This document shows, one piece after another, positions 240-10,467 of a stretch of DNA of 11,728 nt (position 1 is its first letter; every line of letters starts with the position of its first letter). Source of the DNA: Triparma columacea (Eukaryota > Sar > Bolidophyceae > Parmales > Triparmaceae); the NCBI GenBank assembly GCA_030267965.1, contig BRYA01000483.1:3978-15705 (forward strand). The letters run 5' to 3'. A model generated the notes under the pieces. It was not told the DNA's origin. It ran no database searches and was given only the letters and a program-made list of their open reading frames with translations. A program made the translations under genes and the position numbers.

Positions 240-295
240 CTACTGTCCCGTAAGAGACATTCCTCTTGGCGATAGAGCCCCCCACCAAACGTGAA

Positions 296-2147
<1,852 letters not shown>

Positions 2148-2937: not shown

Positions 2938-3072
2938 CGCGCAATAATGACGCACTATACGAATTTTCCAGCTTACGACATCTTTACTCACACCAAAAAA
3001 CGCCGCTCCGCCACCTTTTTTTACGCACGTCGATCACGAACGCATGATTTTCAGCACCCAATCAAGATCGTC

Positions 3073-6000
3073 ATGGAGGGTGAGGTTGAAGCAGATGTAG
3101 GAGTCGTGAATGACGCCGGCGAGATCAACTTCGCCTCCGAGCCCCCCTCAGGCCCCAATCACACACCCTCCGCAATATGCGGTCCCATAGATATCGATTA
3201 CACAGCTCTTGGCCCCGAACAAGTCAAACTTGTGAAACTTCTGGATGACCGAGGAGCCATTGAAGGCCTCATCGACAACTCTACTGGCGTCGATGTGAAG
3301 GTTATGGAGCTCGCTGATGTCTTGCACGACGAGCGCGACAAGATCGTTGACTTTCTCCTCACGGATTGCGAGCAGGGAAAGTTCCGAAGGAAGACCCTCC
3401 AGGAGTATGACGAAAAGGAAGGAGTCATTCATAGACTCGTCTACTGGCAGCACTACGGCAGCGGAAATAAGTTTGTCGAATTTCTCCTCGACGTCAAAGT
3501 CGTATCTCCTGACAAATCGACGAACATTATGGAGTTGGCACCCCTTGATGAGGATGACCTTTCTGATGAGGCAACTGCGATGCTTGTCGACATTCTAGCG
3601 TCAATAAAGACCAAGACTGTCAAGCGAGGTGTCATTAAGGGGGAGCTCAGCTTCACTGATTTCGAGTTTGGACAAACTGCAGTCACCATGGTGGGAACTC
3701 TTAAGGCAGAGGAGAGAGCAACAGAGATGAAACCAGAAGTTGATGTTCGCACAGTCAAAACCTTTAAGAGTGTGAGATCCATGAGATCTAGGGTTGAAGG
3801 CTGGAACAATGGCAGGATCAAGAAGGGAGACGTCAAGGCTGCGTATGCAGCAGTAAAGGGTATCATGGAGGAGGTCAGGAAGAAGTTCAGACAACCTAGT
3901 GTCATTGATGAGAGGAGGAAAAGACACTTTGTGGAGGAGGTCATGCCAAGGGCACCGCCTCTGATTATAGAGGAGGAGGCAATGTTGGAGAGGGTTGGGA
4001 GGCTAGAGAAGGAACTTCACATGAAGGGGAAAAGGGTCAAGGGGACACTGAAGGAGGGTATTGACAAGTTCCTGTGGAGAGAGGGGGACAAGGTTTGGGG
4101 AGCCTATGGGGTCATTGTGGACAAGTCAGCGAAGGGTGTATTGGCAGAGCAATATCTGCTTGACACATTTGCGCGATCTGAGAAGCACTTCAAAAATAAT
4201 GGGAACTTACCAAGGGCTATCAGGAACGATTTTGAGGGAACTAGAAGCACGCACTATCATTTTGGCGTGAAGGTCCCTGCCACCACCAACCGACTCTTTG
4301 AGATGTGGTTGGTGTGGAAGGAGGTTAAACTTGAGAATGGCCAGACTTCATACATGATAGGATTAGTGCCATTGCATGAATATTATGGGGCAAGCTTCAC
4401 CAAGCTTAGCAAGGACGGCTTTGTAGTTGGAGTAACAAAAGGAATCTACATCATGGCCGAGGTTGCCCCAAATGTCTGTAGGGTGACACGTATTCAAACA
4501 GTTGATCTGAAATTTAGTGGCATTCATAAGACAGTGATGGACAAAGCCATTGACTACCTTGCAAAGAGTCAGCTTGTTGAGGCCAACAGGTTGCAGAAGA
4601 AGTTCAGGAGGAACGGGAAGGAAGTTGATGCTGAGGTCAGGGGGGCCTTGGTGGAGAGGATGAGGGAGGGCGTTGAGTTGGAGGAGGACCAGAAGAAGGT
4701 GTTTGGGGAGTTGGAGGAGCTCTTTGGTGGGGAGGAGGAAGGAGGAAAAACTAAGATCTTGAAGAAAACGAGCTGGAAGAGTAGGGCAACTTTTATGGCA
4801 TCTTTAAAGGGTCGAATGGGTTTTGGAAAGCTCTTTGGTGGGGAGGAGGAAGGAGGGTGGGGGCCTCTCAAGTCACCTTATGAGGGAGTGAAGATGGAGC
4901 TCAAGTACAAGCAGCAGGAGAAAGGAAAAAAGACACTTGGTTTTGGAAGAGCCGAGTGCTTTGCCGACTGCTCAGCCGAGGAAGCAGCTGCTTGGTTCTT
5001 TGAGTACTCAAGCAGAGAAAGAATGGCTCTGAGTATAGAGGAAGGGAACCCTGCAAGGCTGGAGATAAGGAAATGGGGAGAGGAAAGGACCAATGAGAAG
5101 CTTTTTGCTATAATTAAGAAACTCCCATACCCTCTTCACAAAAGAGAGTTTGTGATGAGATATGTATTGCAAAAGGGATGCCAAGATGACACCATGTCTG
5201 TAGCATTTGTCCCAGCTAACGTGCAGGTGGACTATGGGGGAAACCTAGGAAACCTTGTACGGGCAACAACAAGTGGCATTTTCACTGCCAAGAATATTGA
5301 GGACCATAATGGTGTTCTCCAGTGTAAACTTACATTGACCCAATACATGGACACAGGGGGGCATATTCCAGTCAAAGTTGTCGACAGAACAATACCACGA
5401 GTACTAAGTACGATAGCAACACTAAGGGACTGCTTCAAGCGGGATGAAGAGATTGATAAAGCTGCACTGGCCTCGCTTGCCAACATTATCAAGAATGAGC
5501 CCCAGAATTATACCAAGGAGGAGGAGGATGCAATCAGTAAGGGGAAGGAGTTCTATGAGAAGAGCAAGGTGGATAAGAACTTTGATGATTTGAAGAGTCC
5601 TGATGAGAGGGTCAAGATGAAGCTAGTTCATGTTGACGGGGAAAGCAGGGGAACTGGTTTTGCCACTACTTTGGTTGATGCGAGTGTGGAGGAGTGTGCA
5701 GCACATGTAATAGTCGATCTAGACAGCAGGGAGAAGGTGGAGAAAGCTAAGAAGAGAGGAATAACCTTCTTGAAAGTCATCAATGTGAACCCCCACACTC
5801 TCTACTACATCACAACAAGGGACCTTGGTCTCCCTCGTTTTGCTCCACGTGATGGTCGGAGTAAAATTACCTGGTGCAAGCAAGATGATGGCAAAGTTAT
5901 CATTGATGTTGCAGACACAGAGGAGATTGATGTAGACTTTCCAGTGAAGGCTCGGAATGTTTTAGGGAAGGCACACACAGTATGGGTATTTGAGCCACTT

Positions 6001-9000
6001 GACCCTATTGGAGGTGTGCCGAAAACATCAGTCACTTTCACAACAAAGGTAGATCTTGGTGGTGTCTTCTTCTCCTCCATCATGAACAAGCTTGCACCGG
6101 GGTTTCTAGCAACTGTCTCAAATATGAGAAGAAAATTTGACAAGAGCAATGAGATTGATGCCTTCAAGAGGCAGCAGATCATAGAAAAGTTTGAGGAGAT
6201 TGCAATTGAGGGAGCACCAGGGATTGAAAGTCACTTTAATGAGATTGACGGAGCTCAAGAGATCAGTAGTGGGTTGTCTGGAACGACAATGATTAAGGCA
6301 GAGAAGGGGATGGGATGGGGAATGACTTCAATAATTGCCAGAGCATCCCACAAGGAAGTTGCAGCATTCTTCTGGGGCCTTAAAAGTGGAGTTGACTCCC
6401 AGCTTGTGATTCACAGAGTTAACAACAAGACACTTGTAATCACAGGTGACCAAGGAGCATTAACACCAAAACGCTCACTGAGCTCACTGAGCAGTACCAG
6501 GGTTGACTCAATTGTAAGCTCACTGAGCAGTACCACAATTGGCTCAAAAATAAATGCATTCACAGCATTCACAGCAGTGAAATTTTCTGAGGTTGAAGAA
6601 AAGAAGACAGACATTGAAATGATGACTGTACATACGGGTTTAGGAAAAGCCGCCAGCAAAAAGAGTGTAATCAAGCACCTGGGCATAGCAATTGATGCTG
6701 CTTACTACTTTGACAACATCCTGAAGAGCACAGAAGCAGGGGAGCAGGATGGGAGGAGGTTTGGAGAGCAGCTGATGGAGAGAGTGAATAGAAGAAATGT
6801 TGGGGACAGTAAGGTAGAGGTCGTGAGGGAATTCATTGCTGCCAATAGGGCACTGAGAGAGATTACAGAGCAGCATGGTTTCATAAGAACTCTGCTGTTT
6901 GCTGTGCTTATGAACAAATTTAAAAGGAGAGCGACAAGTGAGGGAGAAGATAATAGTGAGGAGGAAGCCAGGGGGTGGGAGATTGGGAGTGCAATGACAG
7001 GAGTCATGTTGACCACAGCAACTGCTGCTCATGCTGTAGACGAGTGGGCCCATCAGTTCACTGAAGTGCAAGAAGTCATGAATGAACAAGCATGGTTAAG
7101 GCCAATGCTTGAGGAGATAGTTATGAAACTATTTATGAAGTCTAACCTAGGCTTAAAAGCAAGGGTCATTGTTGGGGCTATTACAAGCATGTCTGATTTG
7201 CTGACTGATGTGTATGTGACACATAAGTTTTGGAGTGATAAGAAGTATGGGTACTTCAAGGCTTCTTTTGCAAGTTTGGCAGTGTCAATTGGGTTCCAGA
7301 TGCTTATTGTTTGGGGACAGAACAGGAAGTTGGGGATGAAGAGAGTGTTAAGGGAGTGGATTCCAATCTTACTCGGGTACAAGCCTGCAGTTGATGCTTA
7401 CAGGGTTGCAAAAGGAAAAAAACAAGAAGCTGGACATGCTGTTGATCCTATGTACGAGATGACATTTATGAAAGGGATAGAGATGTTTGCTGAGGCAATC
7501 CCTGGAGTGATCATCCAACTTATGGCAATAGCAACAAGTGATAAAGATGTTGGCAGATCAGCATGGCTTTCAGTTGCAGTGTCAGCAATTACAACAGGCT
7601 TTGCCTCTGCAACAATTAGTTATGACTTTGACACTGACCCTGCTAGGAGAGAAACGGCACCAGACTTTTACGGTTATATACCAGCAAAGGCAAGCAAGAG
7701 ATCAGTAGTGTTTGTTTCCATGATGCTCTTGACAGCAGGGATGCTTCTCATAAGATGTACAACAATAGTTCTTCTTGGGTTGATTGGAGGTCGTTGGGCC
7801 ATTCTCTACATTGGAGCTGACCTTGGTTTGTTCTTGTTAGTTAAGATATTGAGGGGAGACTTTTGGTACTGGATACCAGCAGGAGGAAACCTAGAAATTG
7901 TGAGCAGTATTCTATTGAGAGTGATTGGTAAGATCATCACAGACTTCACGTCAATTGCACATTTCCGACATCCTAACGCAGTTGGAGGAGCCTATTGGTT
8001 GTTTGGTCTTATGTTGACCATGGGGAGCCTACCAGTGTCAATATATATAGCTTCACCTTATGTTGATGAGCGAGCTATTGATATTGCATCATTCATTGTG
8101 AACTATTTCATTCTAATGACTATCCTATGCTTTGCTGTCTTCTTGTTGAACATTGATAGGAAGTACTGGCACACCTTCTGGAGTACAGAAACATCAAAGG
8201 CTTTTACAATGGCATACTTTCTTGAAGGAAAGAGTGATGAAGTAAAGTTTCTAGTCCTTACATGCTCAAGACATCACTGGGTTTCTATTGAGGAAGAAAT
8301 TAAGAAATGGGTTGGCTTAAACTGGGCTAAATGGGAAGAGGAGCAACCAGAGTGGTTTACTGATGCGACAAAAGCTTTGGTGCCAGTAGAATTTATTCCA
8401 GCAGATGGAGATGCGAGAAAGATTGAGAGTGTTAGGAGAGCAAGTGTGGATGCTGAAGCTGAGGGTGGTCTAGCTGGTACTTTGAGAGCAAGTATCAGGA
8501 GAGCAAGTGTTGGCTTGGACAATGCAGGTGCATTGGTTTCTTTGCATGCTGTGAATGATACTATACAAGACTATGCAGGTTTAGATCCTAAGCAAATAGG
8601 AAAGTTGTTGGGTGAGCAACTGTTGGTTGCATTAAGTTTCAGGAAGAAGGGAATGACAAAGGAGGACGCAGTGAGGTTATTTATAGGGTCAAACTATGTT
8701 CTGAGACAGGCTGCAGATAAGTACGCGTTTGTCACACCAATGCTTGGCGCAGTTGTCAAGAACAAGCTGTGCAAGTTGAGGAAGGTAGAGGGTAAGGCTG
8801 TAGAGCTGGGGGAAAAGGAGGGGAGAGAGATTGGACAGTCACTAGCAAGGAGTTTGGCTATTAATACAAAGCCAGTTGCTGCTGTAGATGCCTTCATCTT
8901 AAATTTCCCTGCACTGCAGGAGCTTGATGATGAGTATGAGTGGTTCAGACCTATGCTTGAAACAATTAGCTACAGGCTTTTGGAGGAAGTTCCTTGGGGG

Positions 9001-10467
9001 TTGAAGGCGAGAGTGACTGTTGGCTCTATTACGAGTATGATCGATTTGCTAACTGATGTGTATGTGACGTACATGTTTTGGTTTGATGAGAAGGGGGGAT
9101 ACTTCAAGGCTTCTCTGGCAAGTTTGGTGGTATCCATAGGGATACAAATGCTTGTAGTTTGGGTAAAGAACAGAAAGTTGGGTACAAAGAGGGTGGTACG
9201 GGAGTGTATTCCAATCTTGCTTGGGTACAAGCCTGCTGTTGATGCTTACAGAGTTGCAACGGGAGAAAAGCAAGAGATTGAGACAGCATTTGACGCAATG
9301 GGTGAATTAACATGTATGAAAGTGGTTGAGATGTTTGCTGAGGCAATCCCTGGAGTGATCATTCAACTTATGGCAATTGTAACTAGTACCAAAGATGTTG
9401 GAATTTCAGCATGGCTTTCAGTTGCAGTGTCAGCTATTACAACAGGCTTTGCTTCAGCAACTATTAGTTATGACTGGGATACAGACCCTGGGATGAGAGA
9501 AAAGGCACCAGACTTTTATGGGTGTATACCAGCACAAGCAGGTATGAGGACAGTAGTGTTTGTGTCAATGTTGCTCTTTACAGCAGGGATGCTTCTAATA
9601 AGGTGTACAACAATAGTTCTTCTTGGGGTGATGGGAGGTAGGTGGGCCTTTCTCTACATTGGAGCCGACCTTGGTCTCTACTTGTTGGTTAAGATATGGA
9701 GGGGAGACTTTTGGTACTGGATATCATTAGGGGGTAACATTGAGATTGTGACTAGTATTCTTTGCAGAGTGGTGATAAAGATCATTACAGATTTCACATC
9801 AATAGTGATATATAGACATCCTTATGAAGTTGGAGGAGTGTATTGGTTGTTTGGTCTTGTTTTGACCATGGGGAGCCTCCCAATGTCAATACATATAGCT
9901 TCACCTTATGTTGATGAGCGAGCTATTGATATTGCATCATTCATTGTGAACTATTTCATTCTAATGACTATCCTATGCTTTGCTGTCTTCTTGTTGAACA
10001 TTGATAGGAAGTACTGGCACACATTCTGGAGTACACAAAGATCAAAGGACTATTCAATGGCATATTTCCTTGAAGGAAAAAGTGATAAAGTAAGGTTTGT
10101 AGTCTTTGGAAGGTCAAGGCATCATTGGGTCTCAATTGAAGGCGAATTAAGGAGGTGGATTGAGTCGAACTGGGCTAAATGGGAAGAGGAGCAACCAGAG
10201 TGGTTTACTGATGTGATGAAGGCTAAAGTACCTGTAGATTTTATTCCATCAGATGGAGATGCAAGAAGGAGAGAGAGTGTTAGGAGAGCAAGTGTTGATG
10301 CTGAAGCTGAGGGTGGTCTAGCAGGTGCTTTGAGAGCAAGCATTAGGAGAGCAAGTGTTGGAGGCGCTGATGGTGGAGAGATTATAGGGCTAGGAGGTGG
10401 GAAGGCTAAAGTTAGCAGTGTTGTGCCAGTTAAAGATGAAGAAGAGAAAGAAGGTGAAGCAATTTGA
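3073..10467 (+). CDS. Giant START-like / tandem XK-related (scramblase-like) membrane protein
   Basis: One uninterrupted frame to TGA at 10465-10467 gives 2464 residues from ATG 3073, or 2506 from ATG 2947. I prefer 3073: it lies downstream of the likely start site, its context is good (G at -3 and +4), and the intervening 42 residues (Thr, His, Arg rich) are unlike the rest. Residue numbers here count from 2947. Residues 96-260 are an unassigned N-terminal region. START-like repeats lie at about 365-560, 643-850 and 883-1090, with a truncated copy at 1100-1168. A Ser-rich linker follows, then two homologous membrane modules (about 1268-1856 and 1884-2472). Each module has nine or ten hydrophobic segments in the order and spacing of XK-related scramblases. 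The tail is acidic. No signal peptide is seen. The expected role is binding or moving lipids and redistributing phospholipids between bilayer leaflets; this is inferred from family resemblance. START-like assignment is moderately sure; XKR likeness rests on motif order and length. The alternative is an uncharacterised polytopic membrane family. Confidence 0.85.
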   Translation: MEGEVEADVGVVNDAGEINFASEPPSGPNHTPSAICGPIDIDYTALGPEQVKLVKLLDDRGAIEGLIDNSTGVDVKVMELADVLHDERDKIVDFLLTDCEQGKFRRKTLQEYDEKEGVIHRLVYWQHYGSGNKFVEFLLDVKVVSPDKSTNIMELAPLDEDDLSDEATAMLVDILASIKTKTVKRGVIKGELSFTDFEFGQTAVTMVGTLKAEERATEMKPEVDVRTVKTFKSVRSMRSRVEGWNNGRIKKGDVKAAYAAVKGIMEEVRKKFRQPSVIDERRKRHFVEEVMPRAPPLIIEEEAMLERVGRLEKELHMKGKRVKGTLKEGIDKFLWREGDKVWGAYGVIVDKSAKGVLAEQYLLDTFARSEKHFKNNGNLPRAIRNDFEGTRSTHYHFGVKVPATTNRLFEMWLVWKEVKLENGQTSYMIGLVPLHEYYGASFTKLSKDGFVVGVTKGIYIMAEVAPNVCRVTRIQTVDLKFSGIHKTVMDKAIDYLAKSQLVEANRLQKKFRRNGKEVDAEVRGALVERMREGVELEEDQKKVFGELEELFGGEEEGGKTKILKKTSWKSRATFMASLKGRMGFGKLFGGEEEGGWGPLKSPYEGVKMELKYKQQEKGKKTLGFGRAECFADCSAEEAAAWFFEYSSRERMALSIEEGNPARLEIRKWGEERTNEKLFAIIKKLPYPLHKREFVMRYVLQKGCQDDTMSVAFVPANVQVDYGGNLGNLVRATTSGIFTAKNIEDHNGVLQCKLTLTQYMDTGGHIPVKVVDRTIPRVLSTIATLRDCFKRDEEIDKAALASLANIIKNEPQNYTKEEEDAISKGKEFYEKSKVDKNFDDLKSPDERVKMKLVHVDGESRGTGFATTLVDASVEECAAHVIVDLDSREKVEKAKKRGITFLKVINVNPHTLYYITTRDLGLPRFAPRDGRSKITWCKQDDGKVIIDVADTEEIDVDFPVKARNVLGKAHTVWVFEPLDPIGGVPKTSVTFTTKVDLGGVFFSSIMNKLAPGFLATVSNMRRKFDKSNEIDAFKRQQIIEKFEEIAIEGAPGIESHFNEIDGAQEISSGLSGTTMIKAEKGMGWGMTSIIARASHKEVAAFFWGLKSGVDSQLVIHRVNNKTLVITGDQGALTPKRSLSSLSSTRVDSIVSSLSSTTIGSKINAFTAFTAVKFSEVEEKKTDIEMMTVHTGLGKAASKKSVIKHLGIAIDAAYYFDNILKSTEAGEQDGRRFGEQLMERVNRRNVGDSKVEVVREFIAANRALREITEQHGFIRTLLFAVLMNKFKRRATSEGEDNSEEEARGWEIGSAMTGVMLTTATAAHAVDEWAHQFTEVQEVMNEQAWLRPMLEEIVMKLFMKSNLGLKARVIVGAITSMSDLLTDVYVTHKFWSDKKYGYFKASFASLAVSIGFQMLIVWGQNRKLGMKRVLREWIPILLGYKPAVDAYRVAKGKKQEAGHAVDPMYEMTFMKGIEMFAEAIPGVIIQLMAIATSDKDVGRSAWLSVAVSAITTGFASATISYDFDTDPARRETAPDFYGYIPAKASKRSVVFVSMMLLTAGMLLIRCTTIVLLGLIGGRWAILYIGADLGLFLLVKILRGDFWYWIPAGGNLEIVSSILLRVIGKIITDFTSIAHFRHPNAVGGAYWLFGLMLTMGSLPVSIYIASPYVDERAIDIASFIVNYFILMTILCFAVFLLNIDRKYWHTFWSTETSKAFTMAYFLEGKSDEVKFLVLTCSRHHWVSIEEEIKKWVGLNWAKWEEEQPEWFTDATKALVPVEFIPADGDARKIESVRRASVDAEAEGGLAGTLRASIRRASVGLDNAGALVSLHAVNDTIQDYAGLDPKQIGKLLGEQLLVALSFRKKGMTKEDAVRLFIGSNYVLRQAADKYAFVTPMLGAVVKNKLCKLRKVEGKAVELGEKEGREIGQSLARSLAINTKPVAAVDAFILNFPALQELDDEYEWFRPMLETISYRLLEEVPWGLKARVTVGSITSMIDLLTDVYVTYMFWFDEKGGYFKASLASLVVSIGIQMLVVWVKNRKLGTKRVVRECIPILLGYKPAVDAYRVATGEKQEIETAFDAMGELTCMKVVEMFAEAIPGVIIQLMAIVTSTKDVGISAWLSVAVSAITTGFASATISYDWDTDPGMREKAPDFYGCIPAQAGMRTVVFVSMLLFTAGMLLIRCTTIVLLGVMGGRWAFLYIGADLGLYLLVKIWRGDFWYWISLGGNIEIVTSILCRVVIKIITDFTSIVIYRHPYEVGGVYWLFGLVLTMGSLPMSIHIASPYVDERAIDIASFIVNYFILMTILCFAVFLLNIDRKYWHTFWSTQRSKDYSMAYFLEGKSDKVRFVVFGRSRHHWVSIEGELRRWIESNWAKWEEEQPEWFTDVMKAKVPVDFIPSDGDARRRESVRRASVDAEAEGGLAGALRASIRRASVGGADGGEIIGLGGGKAKVSSVVPVKDEEEKEGEAI
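3232..3726 (+). other. N-terminal region of the large protein, unassigned
   Basis: Residues 96-255 (numbered from 2947) form a predicted globular, charged region with alternating strand-like stretches, including HRLVYW, KFVEFLLDVKVV and TAVTMVGTL. It could be a strongly diverged START-like copy, since later copies share the pattern of strands ending in an acidic linker, but I see no diagnostic motif. A basic stretch follows (about 267-330, many Arg and Lys). The codon choice here is more C-ending than in the rest of the gene. Confidence 0.35.
4039..4626 (+). other. START-like domain 1
   Basis: Residues 365-560. The order resembles the START fold: a strand plus the helix preceded by VDKSAKGVLAEQ, an Arg-Ser-Glu region, then NRLFEMWLVWKE strands, and finally VCRVTRIQTVDLKFSGI leading into a long C-terminal helix. 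START domains bind a single lipid in a helix-grip cavity. It is more diverged than repeats 2 and 3. Confidence 0.55.
4718..4856 (+). repeat. 28-nt direct repeat encoding LFGGEEEGG twice
   Basis: Positions 4718-4745 and 4829-4856 are identical over 28 nt and lie 111 nt (37 codons) apart, so they are in frame. Both encode Leu-Phe-Gly-Gly followed by Glu3-Gly2. The repeat lies in the linker between START-like domains 1 and 2, next to a Lys/Arg-rich stretch, and looks like a recent in-frame duplication. Confidence 0.85.
4873..5496 (+). other. START-like domain 2
   Basis: Residues 643-850. It begins SPYEGVKMEL, then CFADCSAEEAAAWFFEYSSRERM, KKLPYPLHKREFVMRYVLQ, VDYGG, LQCKLTLTQYMDTGGHIPVKVV and the final amphipathic helix. 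The Gly-Gly-x-Ile-Pro step into the C-terminal helix and the Pro-x-x-x-x-Arg-Glu-Phe strand are typical of START-like proteins. This is the best preserved copy in the protein. Confidence 0.72.
5593..6216 (+). other. START-like domain 3
   Basis: Residues 883-1090. It shares the opening SPDERVKMKL and VDASVEECAAHVIVDLDSRE with domain 2, followed by the aromatic strands around TLYYITTRDLGLPRF, and ends in the helix KLAPGFLATVSNMRRKFDKSNEID. The clear alignment with domain 2 shows a tandem internal repeat. Confidence 0.68.
6244..6450 (+). other. Truncated START-like copy 4
   Basis: Residues 1100-1168. The segment GWGMTSIIARASHKEVAAFF and the following LVIHRVNNKTLVIT align with the opening strand-helix-strand of domains 2 and 3. 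The sequence then runs into a Ser-rich linker, so about two thirds of a domain is missing. It may be a degenerate copy now serving as a spacer. Confidence 0.5.
6481..6535 (+). repeat. In-frame 36-nt-period duplication encoding SSLSST twice
   Basis: The 19-nt sequences at 6481-6499 and 6517-6535 are identical and lie 36 nt (12 codons) apart. A 9-nt tandem repeat encoding Phe-Thr-Ala follows at 6556-6573. Both sit where START-like copy 4 breaks off, which marks this linker as a slippage-prone, fast-changing segment. Confidence 0.85.
6748..8514 (+). repeat. XK-related-like membrane module A (first of a tandem pair)
   Basis: Residues 1268-1856. About 135 residues of helical, charged sequence precede the membrane core at 1404-1737. 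Hydrophobic segments lie near 1404-1426, 1436-1457, 1468-1482 (possibly re-entrant), 1505-1530, 1537-1557, 1585-1634 (two helices), 1648-1672, 1681-1702 and 1711-1735. XKR-like marks are Asp1417-x-x-Thr-Asp1421 in the first helix, LLGYKP (1475-1480), Glu1516 and Pro1519 before Gln1524 in the EMFAEAIPGVIIQL helix, Tyr-Asp at the end of the next helix, and RGDFWYW (1636-1642). XK-related proteins have eight transmembrane helices plus two re-entrant ones in about 340 residues, which fits. The tail carries two RRAS sites. Confidence 0.7.
8424..8508 (+). other. Tail of module A with two RRAS phosphosite motifs
   Basis: Residues 1826-1854, just after the cytosolic tail of module A, contain VRRASVD (Ser1833) and IRRASVG (Ser1854) either side of an Ala/Glu/Gly segment. 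Arg-Arg-x-Ser is the consensus of PKA-type and other basophilic kinases. The same arrangement recurs at 2442-2470 after module B (Ser2449 and Ser2470). Confidence 0.6.
8596..10362 (+). repeat. XK-related-like membrane module B (second of a tandem pair)
   Basis: Residues 1884-2472, aligned to module A at a constant offset of 616 residues (1848 nt) with no net insertion or deletion at any motif checked. The membrane core is strongly conserved (Asp2033 and Asp2037, Glu2132, Pro2135, RGDFWYW at 2252-2258). The roughly 110 residues before the core are much more diverged. This copy should have the same fold and membrane topology as module A; if both act as scramblase units they form a covalent pair. 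Confidence 0.7.
10272..10356 (+). other. Tail of module B with two RRAS phosphosite motifs
   Basis: Residues 2442-2470 repeat the VRRASVD and IRRASVG pair of module A. All four serines are kept at the exact 616-residue period while nearby residues differ. About 36 residues follow to the stop, Gly-rich and then acidic (Lys and Glu). Confidence 0.6.

Follow-up and report, generated by a model that had tools for sequence, protein, structure and literature searches.

Triparma columacea, a free-living photosynthetic member of the Parmales, carries in the window analyzed here (the final 11,728 bases of contig C431, from a genome of 37.85 Mb in 789 contigs) a gene, START-XKR, whose predicted product joins START units and two XK-related (XKR) modules in one chain. 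With a probability of roughly 0.6, we judge this gene to be one copy of a large, intronless-looking T. columacea family of START-XKR lipid-transfer scramblases located at contig ends (subtelomeric). The prevailing view has lipid transfer proteins and scramblases cooperating as separate partners, as do VPS13A and XK; here they would be joined, and since both domain types share one predicted chain, the coupling of transfer to scrambling should be directly testable with one polypeptide. Large mosaic near-telomere gene families are known mainly from parasites and fungi, and the present one adds an example from free-living phytoplankton.

Modules of the START-XKR protein

The first-pass annotation had described three START-like repeats and a truncated one, followed by two copies of a polytopic module, in a single intact frame. 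This layout was borne out: the frame is unbroken from 2947 to 10467, with an in-frame ATG at 2947 that would add 42 residues relative to the ATG at 3073. The proposed XK-related and START identities likewise held up. The whole window protein matches PF09815 at 27.2 bits (cut-off 24.8), best in module 2, as do 19 of the 19 family copies read (E ≤ 0.01); modules 1 and 2 of the window are 77.7% identical. A module-only profile of seven modules (A4) matched rat XKR9 in PDB at E 1.6e-4, the next match being FliQ at an unconvincing 0.14; XKR8 was not matched by this profile even at E 10, and a profile made from full-length rows of both modules (A3) matched no XKR chain in PDB. VIA-align of the AlphaFold2 model of residues 1265-2464 placed the five listed XKR entries at the top (XKR4, 20.5; XKR9, 16.0 and 15.8; XKR8, 16.0 and 15.8), followed by TTYH2 at 9.3; the XKR8 entry 7dce matches module 1, and the other XKR entries match module 2. 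Pfam, the XKR9 profile match and the predicted fold support the assignment of the polytopic modules as XK-related. Low-scoring Pfam matches, among them Cortexin, YL1, and Herpes_pp38, were set aside: they cover membrane or charged segments and, wherever a cut-off is given, fall short of it.

Among the START-like units, U2 shows a profile match to STARD10, U3 is modeled with the helix-grip fold, as in START, and the partial unit U4 aligns by hhalign with U2 at E 8e-7 and weakly with U1 and U3. The curated Pfam START score (PF01852) is reached in paralogue L024 and in the relatives P0018, P0026, P0027, P0036, P0042, and P0047. Profile, modeled fold, and Pfam matches in relatives support the identification of these units as START domains. 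The N-terminal domain U0 was also considered as a START unit, but hhalign gave no profile link between it and the START units. Neither chorein nor another VPS13/ATG2 bridge-domain family appears among the Pfam matches of the window protein to E 10.

In XKR8, the substitutions D26A, D30A, K134A, E137A, E141A, and R183A abolish phosphatidylserine (PtdSer) exposure, and R183A stays cinnamycin-sensitive, according to the available text of Sakuragi et al. (PMC8500837). In the XKR9 alignment the family residues D, D, K, E, and E stand on XKR9 D, D, R, E, and E, and the family spacings D-x3-D and K/R-x2-E-x3-E are those of XKR8. None of the ten residues, five in each module, varies among the 19 aligned copies. 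Across 65 module rows from 49 proteins, conservation extends to D1375 (63/63), D1379 (63/63), E1470 (59/61), and E1474 (59/59), and the K1467 column holds 58 Lys and 4 Arg of 63.

The motif RRxS is of the PKA type. The tails of all 39 complete modules in the 19 copies contain at least one RRxS site, and 38 contain at least two; the window protein possesses eight RRxS/T sites versus a mean of 0.87 in shuffled sequence. These sites repeat at 616-residue intervals in L025, a copy with three modules, and RRSSV stands behind each module of the triple-XKR protein P0020. The available text of PMC10938166 states that the C-terminal tail restrains XKR8 and that its cleavage or phosphorylation activates the protein.

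A mosaic family at contig ends

The genome contains 112 matches to PF09815 (E ≤ 0.001) and at least 150 to the START-3 segment of the window, 149 of these without an internal stop; the latter is a lower bound, since 150 of 894 candidates were scored. Pooled with places from further searches, the matches occupy 230 contig-and-strand places (125 minus, 105 plus), 40 of them common to both lists, which use different cut-offs. All 181 minus-strand matches fall in the first 10,420 bases of their contigs, and 26 of the 28 plus-strand matches with a known contig end (known in part via telomere places) lie within 12 kb of it, the two exceptions being divergent genes on C470 and C133. As minus matches adjoin starts and plus matches adjoin ends, the 3′-end points outward wherever this can be told.

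The copies, taken as a whole family, adjoin telomeres. Of the 38 contig starts with a family match that were read, 14 bear arrays of (CCCTAA)4 or longer (6/18 in the first 1500 bases and 8/20 in the first 400 bases). Conversely, 32 of 60 listed telomere ends (17/32 starts, 15/28 ends) share an end with a family match, or 31 when the divergent C133 gene is excluded; for the other 28 there is no family match among the matches listed. These 60 ends derive from 100 of the 186 matches of the x10 search, on contigs C2-C348; a telomere pattern with a non-G first base returned five arrays and is uninformative on the array total. It is unlikely that the pattern is an effect of assembly, with contigs breaking at satellites beside the gene and the copies really dispersed through the chromosomes. 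Such an effect would fit the 24 of 38 family-bearing starts without an array, some ending in satellite or N runs, and the window's own contig end, which has minisatellites and no telomere array, so that a telomere is only presumed there. Against it stand the 31 listed telomere ends (32 with C133) at which an outward-3′ family match is found, and the telomere-to-match distances of 1.9-8.2 kb measured on 14 contig ends.

In all 19 copies the reading frame stays open for about 1,900-2,865 residues. Their 171 pairs give median nonsynonymous (dN) and synonymous (dS) divergences of 0.218 and 0.646 and a median omega of 0.335 (ranges: omega 0.268-0.457; dS 0.38-1.0), and the family is under purifying selection. 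These values, with all 19 copies open and the catalytic-type residues invariant, make it very improbable that the copies are hitch-hiking repeats of little function, spread passively with chromosome-end DNA in the manner of Y′ elements, a view that their very high number and location would otherwise suit.

The most diverged domain is START-2 (median dS 1.68, near saturation), with a mean nucleotide distance of 0.449 versus 0.146-0.328 in other regions; it exists as distinct types set between conserved flanks. Its median omega is 0.232, with none of 124 pairs above 1, and omega exceeds 1 in a few short stretches (tail, 5/153 pairs; N-terminus, 7/87 pairs). In location and mosaicism the family recalls var or VSG, and the final helices of each module also vary more (identity about 0.54-0.56), which leaves some room for a variant surface or antigen-like family whose place at contig ends serves the switching of exposed epitopes. 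We consider this highly improbable, as variation falls mostly in START-2, predicted to be cytosolic, the pore-path residues are invariant, and selection is purifying.

Domain histories are mosaic across copies. In 13 of the 19 copies (the partial or outlying L014, L017, L019, L023, L024, and L025 being omitted), distance matrices of two halves within one module correlate (Spearman 0.75 and 0.69, p 0.001), in contrast to module 1 versus module 2 (-0.09, 0.03), START-2 versus START-3 (-0.09), and START-1 versus START-3 (-0.14); START-3 versus H1 gives 0.39 (p 0.045). All 19 copies present the same picture, except that N1, S4, H1, and H2 intercorrelate (0.65-0.96) through the outliers. In a tree of 89 XKR modules, of unsettled bootstrap and long branches, modules 1 and 2 are intermixed, yet more clustered than under shuffled labels. 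Module number also varies, with two in 17 of 19 copies (one truncated by a contig end) and three in L019 and L025; the U3 type is repeated in L014, L019, and L025. As the cause of the mosaics we infer recombination.

Several observations concern individual loci. The genes at C528+ and C133+ are divergent single-XKR genes, and another lies on C470 next to a family copy; L001, L002, and L003, with the top PF09815 scores in the genome, are divergent single-XKR genes outside the family pattern. The public T. columacea protein TrCOL_g854 (P0007, 1570 residues) is 100% identical over residues 1-1565 to a locus on C8; since it sits in a 1974-residue open frame (C8:83261-87955), the published annotation seems to shorten at least one copy. 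Contigs C70, C71, and C75, of about 68-84 kb, carry outward telomere arrays at both ends and are therefore apparently complete very small chromosomes.

Proposed function and relatives

From sequence and models we infer a chain for lipid delivery and leaflet scrambling. The START units would collect or pass on single lipids at the cytosolic leaflet, and the XKR modules would let lipids change leaflet, keeping the bilayer balanced during delivery or removal. Phosphorylation of the RRxS tails by a basic-directed kinase may free the modules, on the model of XKR8 tail phosphorylation. Copies with different START cassettes would furnish a repertoire of lipid preferences, which recombination between chromosome ends might both maintain and reshuffle. 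By analogy with the topology of XKR8, and given even-numbered membrane passes, the START units, linkers, and tails would all be cytosolic; cis-coupled transfer and scrambling is favored because they would share that side.

Several points weigh against this reading. The window protein has no Pfam START match at the curated score, and its START units could be pseudo-domains, serving to sense lipid and not to carry it. The AlphaFold2 model, built with seven sequences, is of low confidence (mean predicted local distance difference test score 51.8). The XKR8 residues were placed indirectly, via XKR9 and spacing, and five of the six scrambling-essential ones are placed and invariant in both modules, R183 being unplaced. 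The single-XKR relative P0018 has zero RRxS/T sites, and phospho-gating is therefore not general. Lastly, T. columacea gene prediction was made without RNA-seq, according to the available text of Ban et al. 2023 (PMC10328945).

There is an outside chance that a recombining chromosome-end repertoire of lipid-sensing START cassettes and kinase-gated scramblases in one chain forms an innate system that couples recognition to membrane remodeling, or else a cell-death system. The cassettes would sense foreign or damaged lipids (of virus, prey, or bacterium) and trigger the XKR modules, with PtdSer exposure or loss of membrane asymmetry as output, like the sensor-effector coupling of nucleotide-binding leucine-rich repeat (NLR) proteins. 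Copy number, contig-end location, START-2 types between conserved flanks, and domain-wise mosaics all suit this, as does the effector: the XKR8 family exposes PtdSer during apoptosis (PMC10938166, available text). Yet an excess of amino-acid change is absent throughout the protein body, START-2 included, and cytosolic START units would meet intracellular lipids only. Lipid transfer coupled to scrambling remains the reading that we prefer.

XK-related scramblases (XKR8-basigin, XKR9, and XKR4; PF09815) share with the family the fold, the acidic path residues, and a C-terminal tail, regulated in XKRs; unlike them, the family has two or three modules per chain, START units ahead, and RRxS clusters of basic-kinase type. 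START proteins such as CERT/STARD11, STARD4, STARD10, and StAR share the helix-grip fold with U3, whereas here a series of three complete units plus a partial one precedes a polytopic, scramblase-like module in the same chain; in STARD3 a single START is joined to the MENTAL membrane domain. VPS13A-XK likewise couples lipid transfer to an XK-family scramblase, as two proteins with a bridge-like transporter, in contrast to one chain with shuttle-type START units. The parasite families var, rif, and VSG share many mosaic near-telomere copies; a free-living photosynthetic host, intracellular-type lipid machinery, and purifying selection set the present family apart.

The same architecture is also present in other Parmales and among environmental sequences. 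When proteins were searched with the XKR part of P0018 as query (7840 candidates scored, at 0.55-1.75 times its length; word filter), 33 matched, of which the 14 with a named organism are all from Parmales (Tetraparma gracilis, Triparma laevis, and T. verrucosa). Precomputed Pfam START is found in nine of these 14, and a tenth, P0042, scores 22.3 (cut-off 22); six of the 33 have both Pfam domains. The MMETSP transcript P0043 is a short-branch sister of T. verrucosa P0042, from which it follows that some relative transcribes a family member. Tandem XKR modules, two or three per chain, also occur in the environmental proteins P0020 (1882 residues; three XKR modules, no precomputed Pfam START) and P0021-P0025. 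P0041 (Tetraparma gracilis TeGR_g7304) combines a predicted XKR module with ion-channel and EF-hand Pfam domains and may be a true fusion or a merged gene model.

The available text of Ban et al. (PMC10328945) reports Parmales to be enriched in START genes, up to 141 in Tetraparma gracilis, with multi-domain START proteins, and in cyclic-nucleotide signaling. The two enrichments fit the reading of START-XKR as kinase-switched lipid transfer and scrambling, being no proof of it. The terms "XK-related," "scramblase," "telomer," and "chromosome" are absent from the main text of that article as available. In the open-licence PMC literature searched, neither "START domain" and "XK-related" nor "Triparma" and "telomer" were found together, and among the matches listed there is no contig-end or subtelomeric family in Parmales.

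Feature coordinates and neighboring sequence

Table 1. Features of the START-XKR gene and its surroundings (window positions).
Feature	Position	Strand	Remarks
START-XKR gene	3073..10467	+	2464 aa plus stop; 19 family copies align along its length
U0, N-terminal domain	3289..3792	+	residues 73-240; alpha/beta in predicted model
U1, START-like unit	3940..4617	+	residues 290-515
U2 (START-2), START-like unit	4822..5508	+	residues 584-812; hhalign, STARD10 profile match
U3, START-like unit	5506..6216	+	residues 812-1048
U4, partial START-like unit	6217..6732	+	residues 1049-1220; hhalign
H1, helical block ahead of XKR module 1	6733..7137	+	residues 1221-1355; helices in model
XKR module 1	7138..8292	+	residues 1356-1740
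D1375, D1379 (XKR9 acidic-pair columns, transmembrane helix 1; XKR8 D26/D30 by spacing)	7195..7209	+	
K1467, E1470, E1474 (XKR8 K/R134, E137, E141 by spacing)	7471..7494	+	
RRASV sites, module 1 tail, residues 1788 and 1809	8434..8508	+	
H2, helical block ahead of XKR module 2	8548..8982	+	residues 1826-1970; helices in model
XKR module 2	8983..10152	+	residues 1971-2360
D1991, D1995, acidic pair of module 2	9043..9057	+	
K2083, E2086, E2090, triad of module 2	9319..9342	+	
RRESV/RRASV sites, C-terminal tail, residues 2399, 2404, 2425	10267..10356	+	
G+T-rich minisatellites, gene to contig end	10999..11646	.	

The helical blocks H1 and H2 rank among the best-conserved parts of the family. Upstream of START-XKR, two overlapping frames at window positions 266-1382 match the aldehyde dehydrogenase family PF00171 (54.3 and 113.8 bits) and are probably one gene split by an intron.
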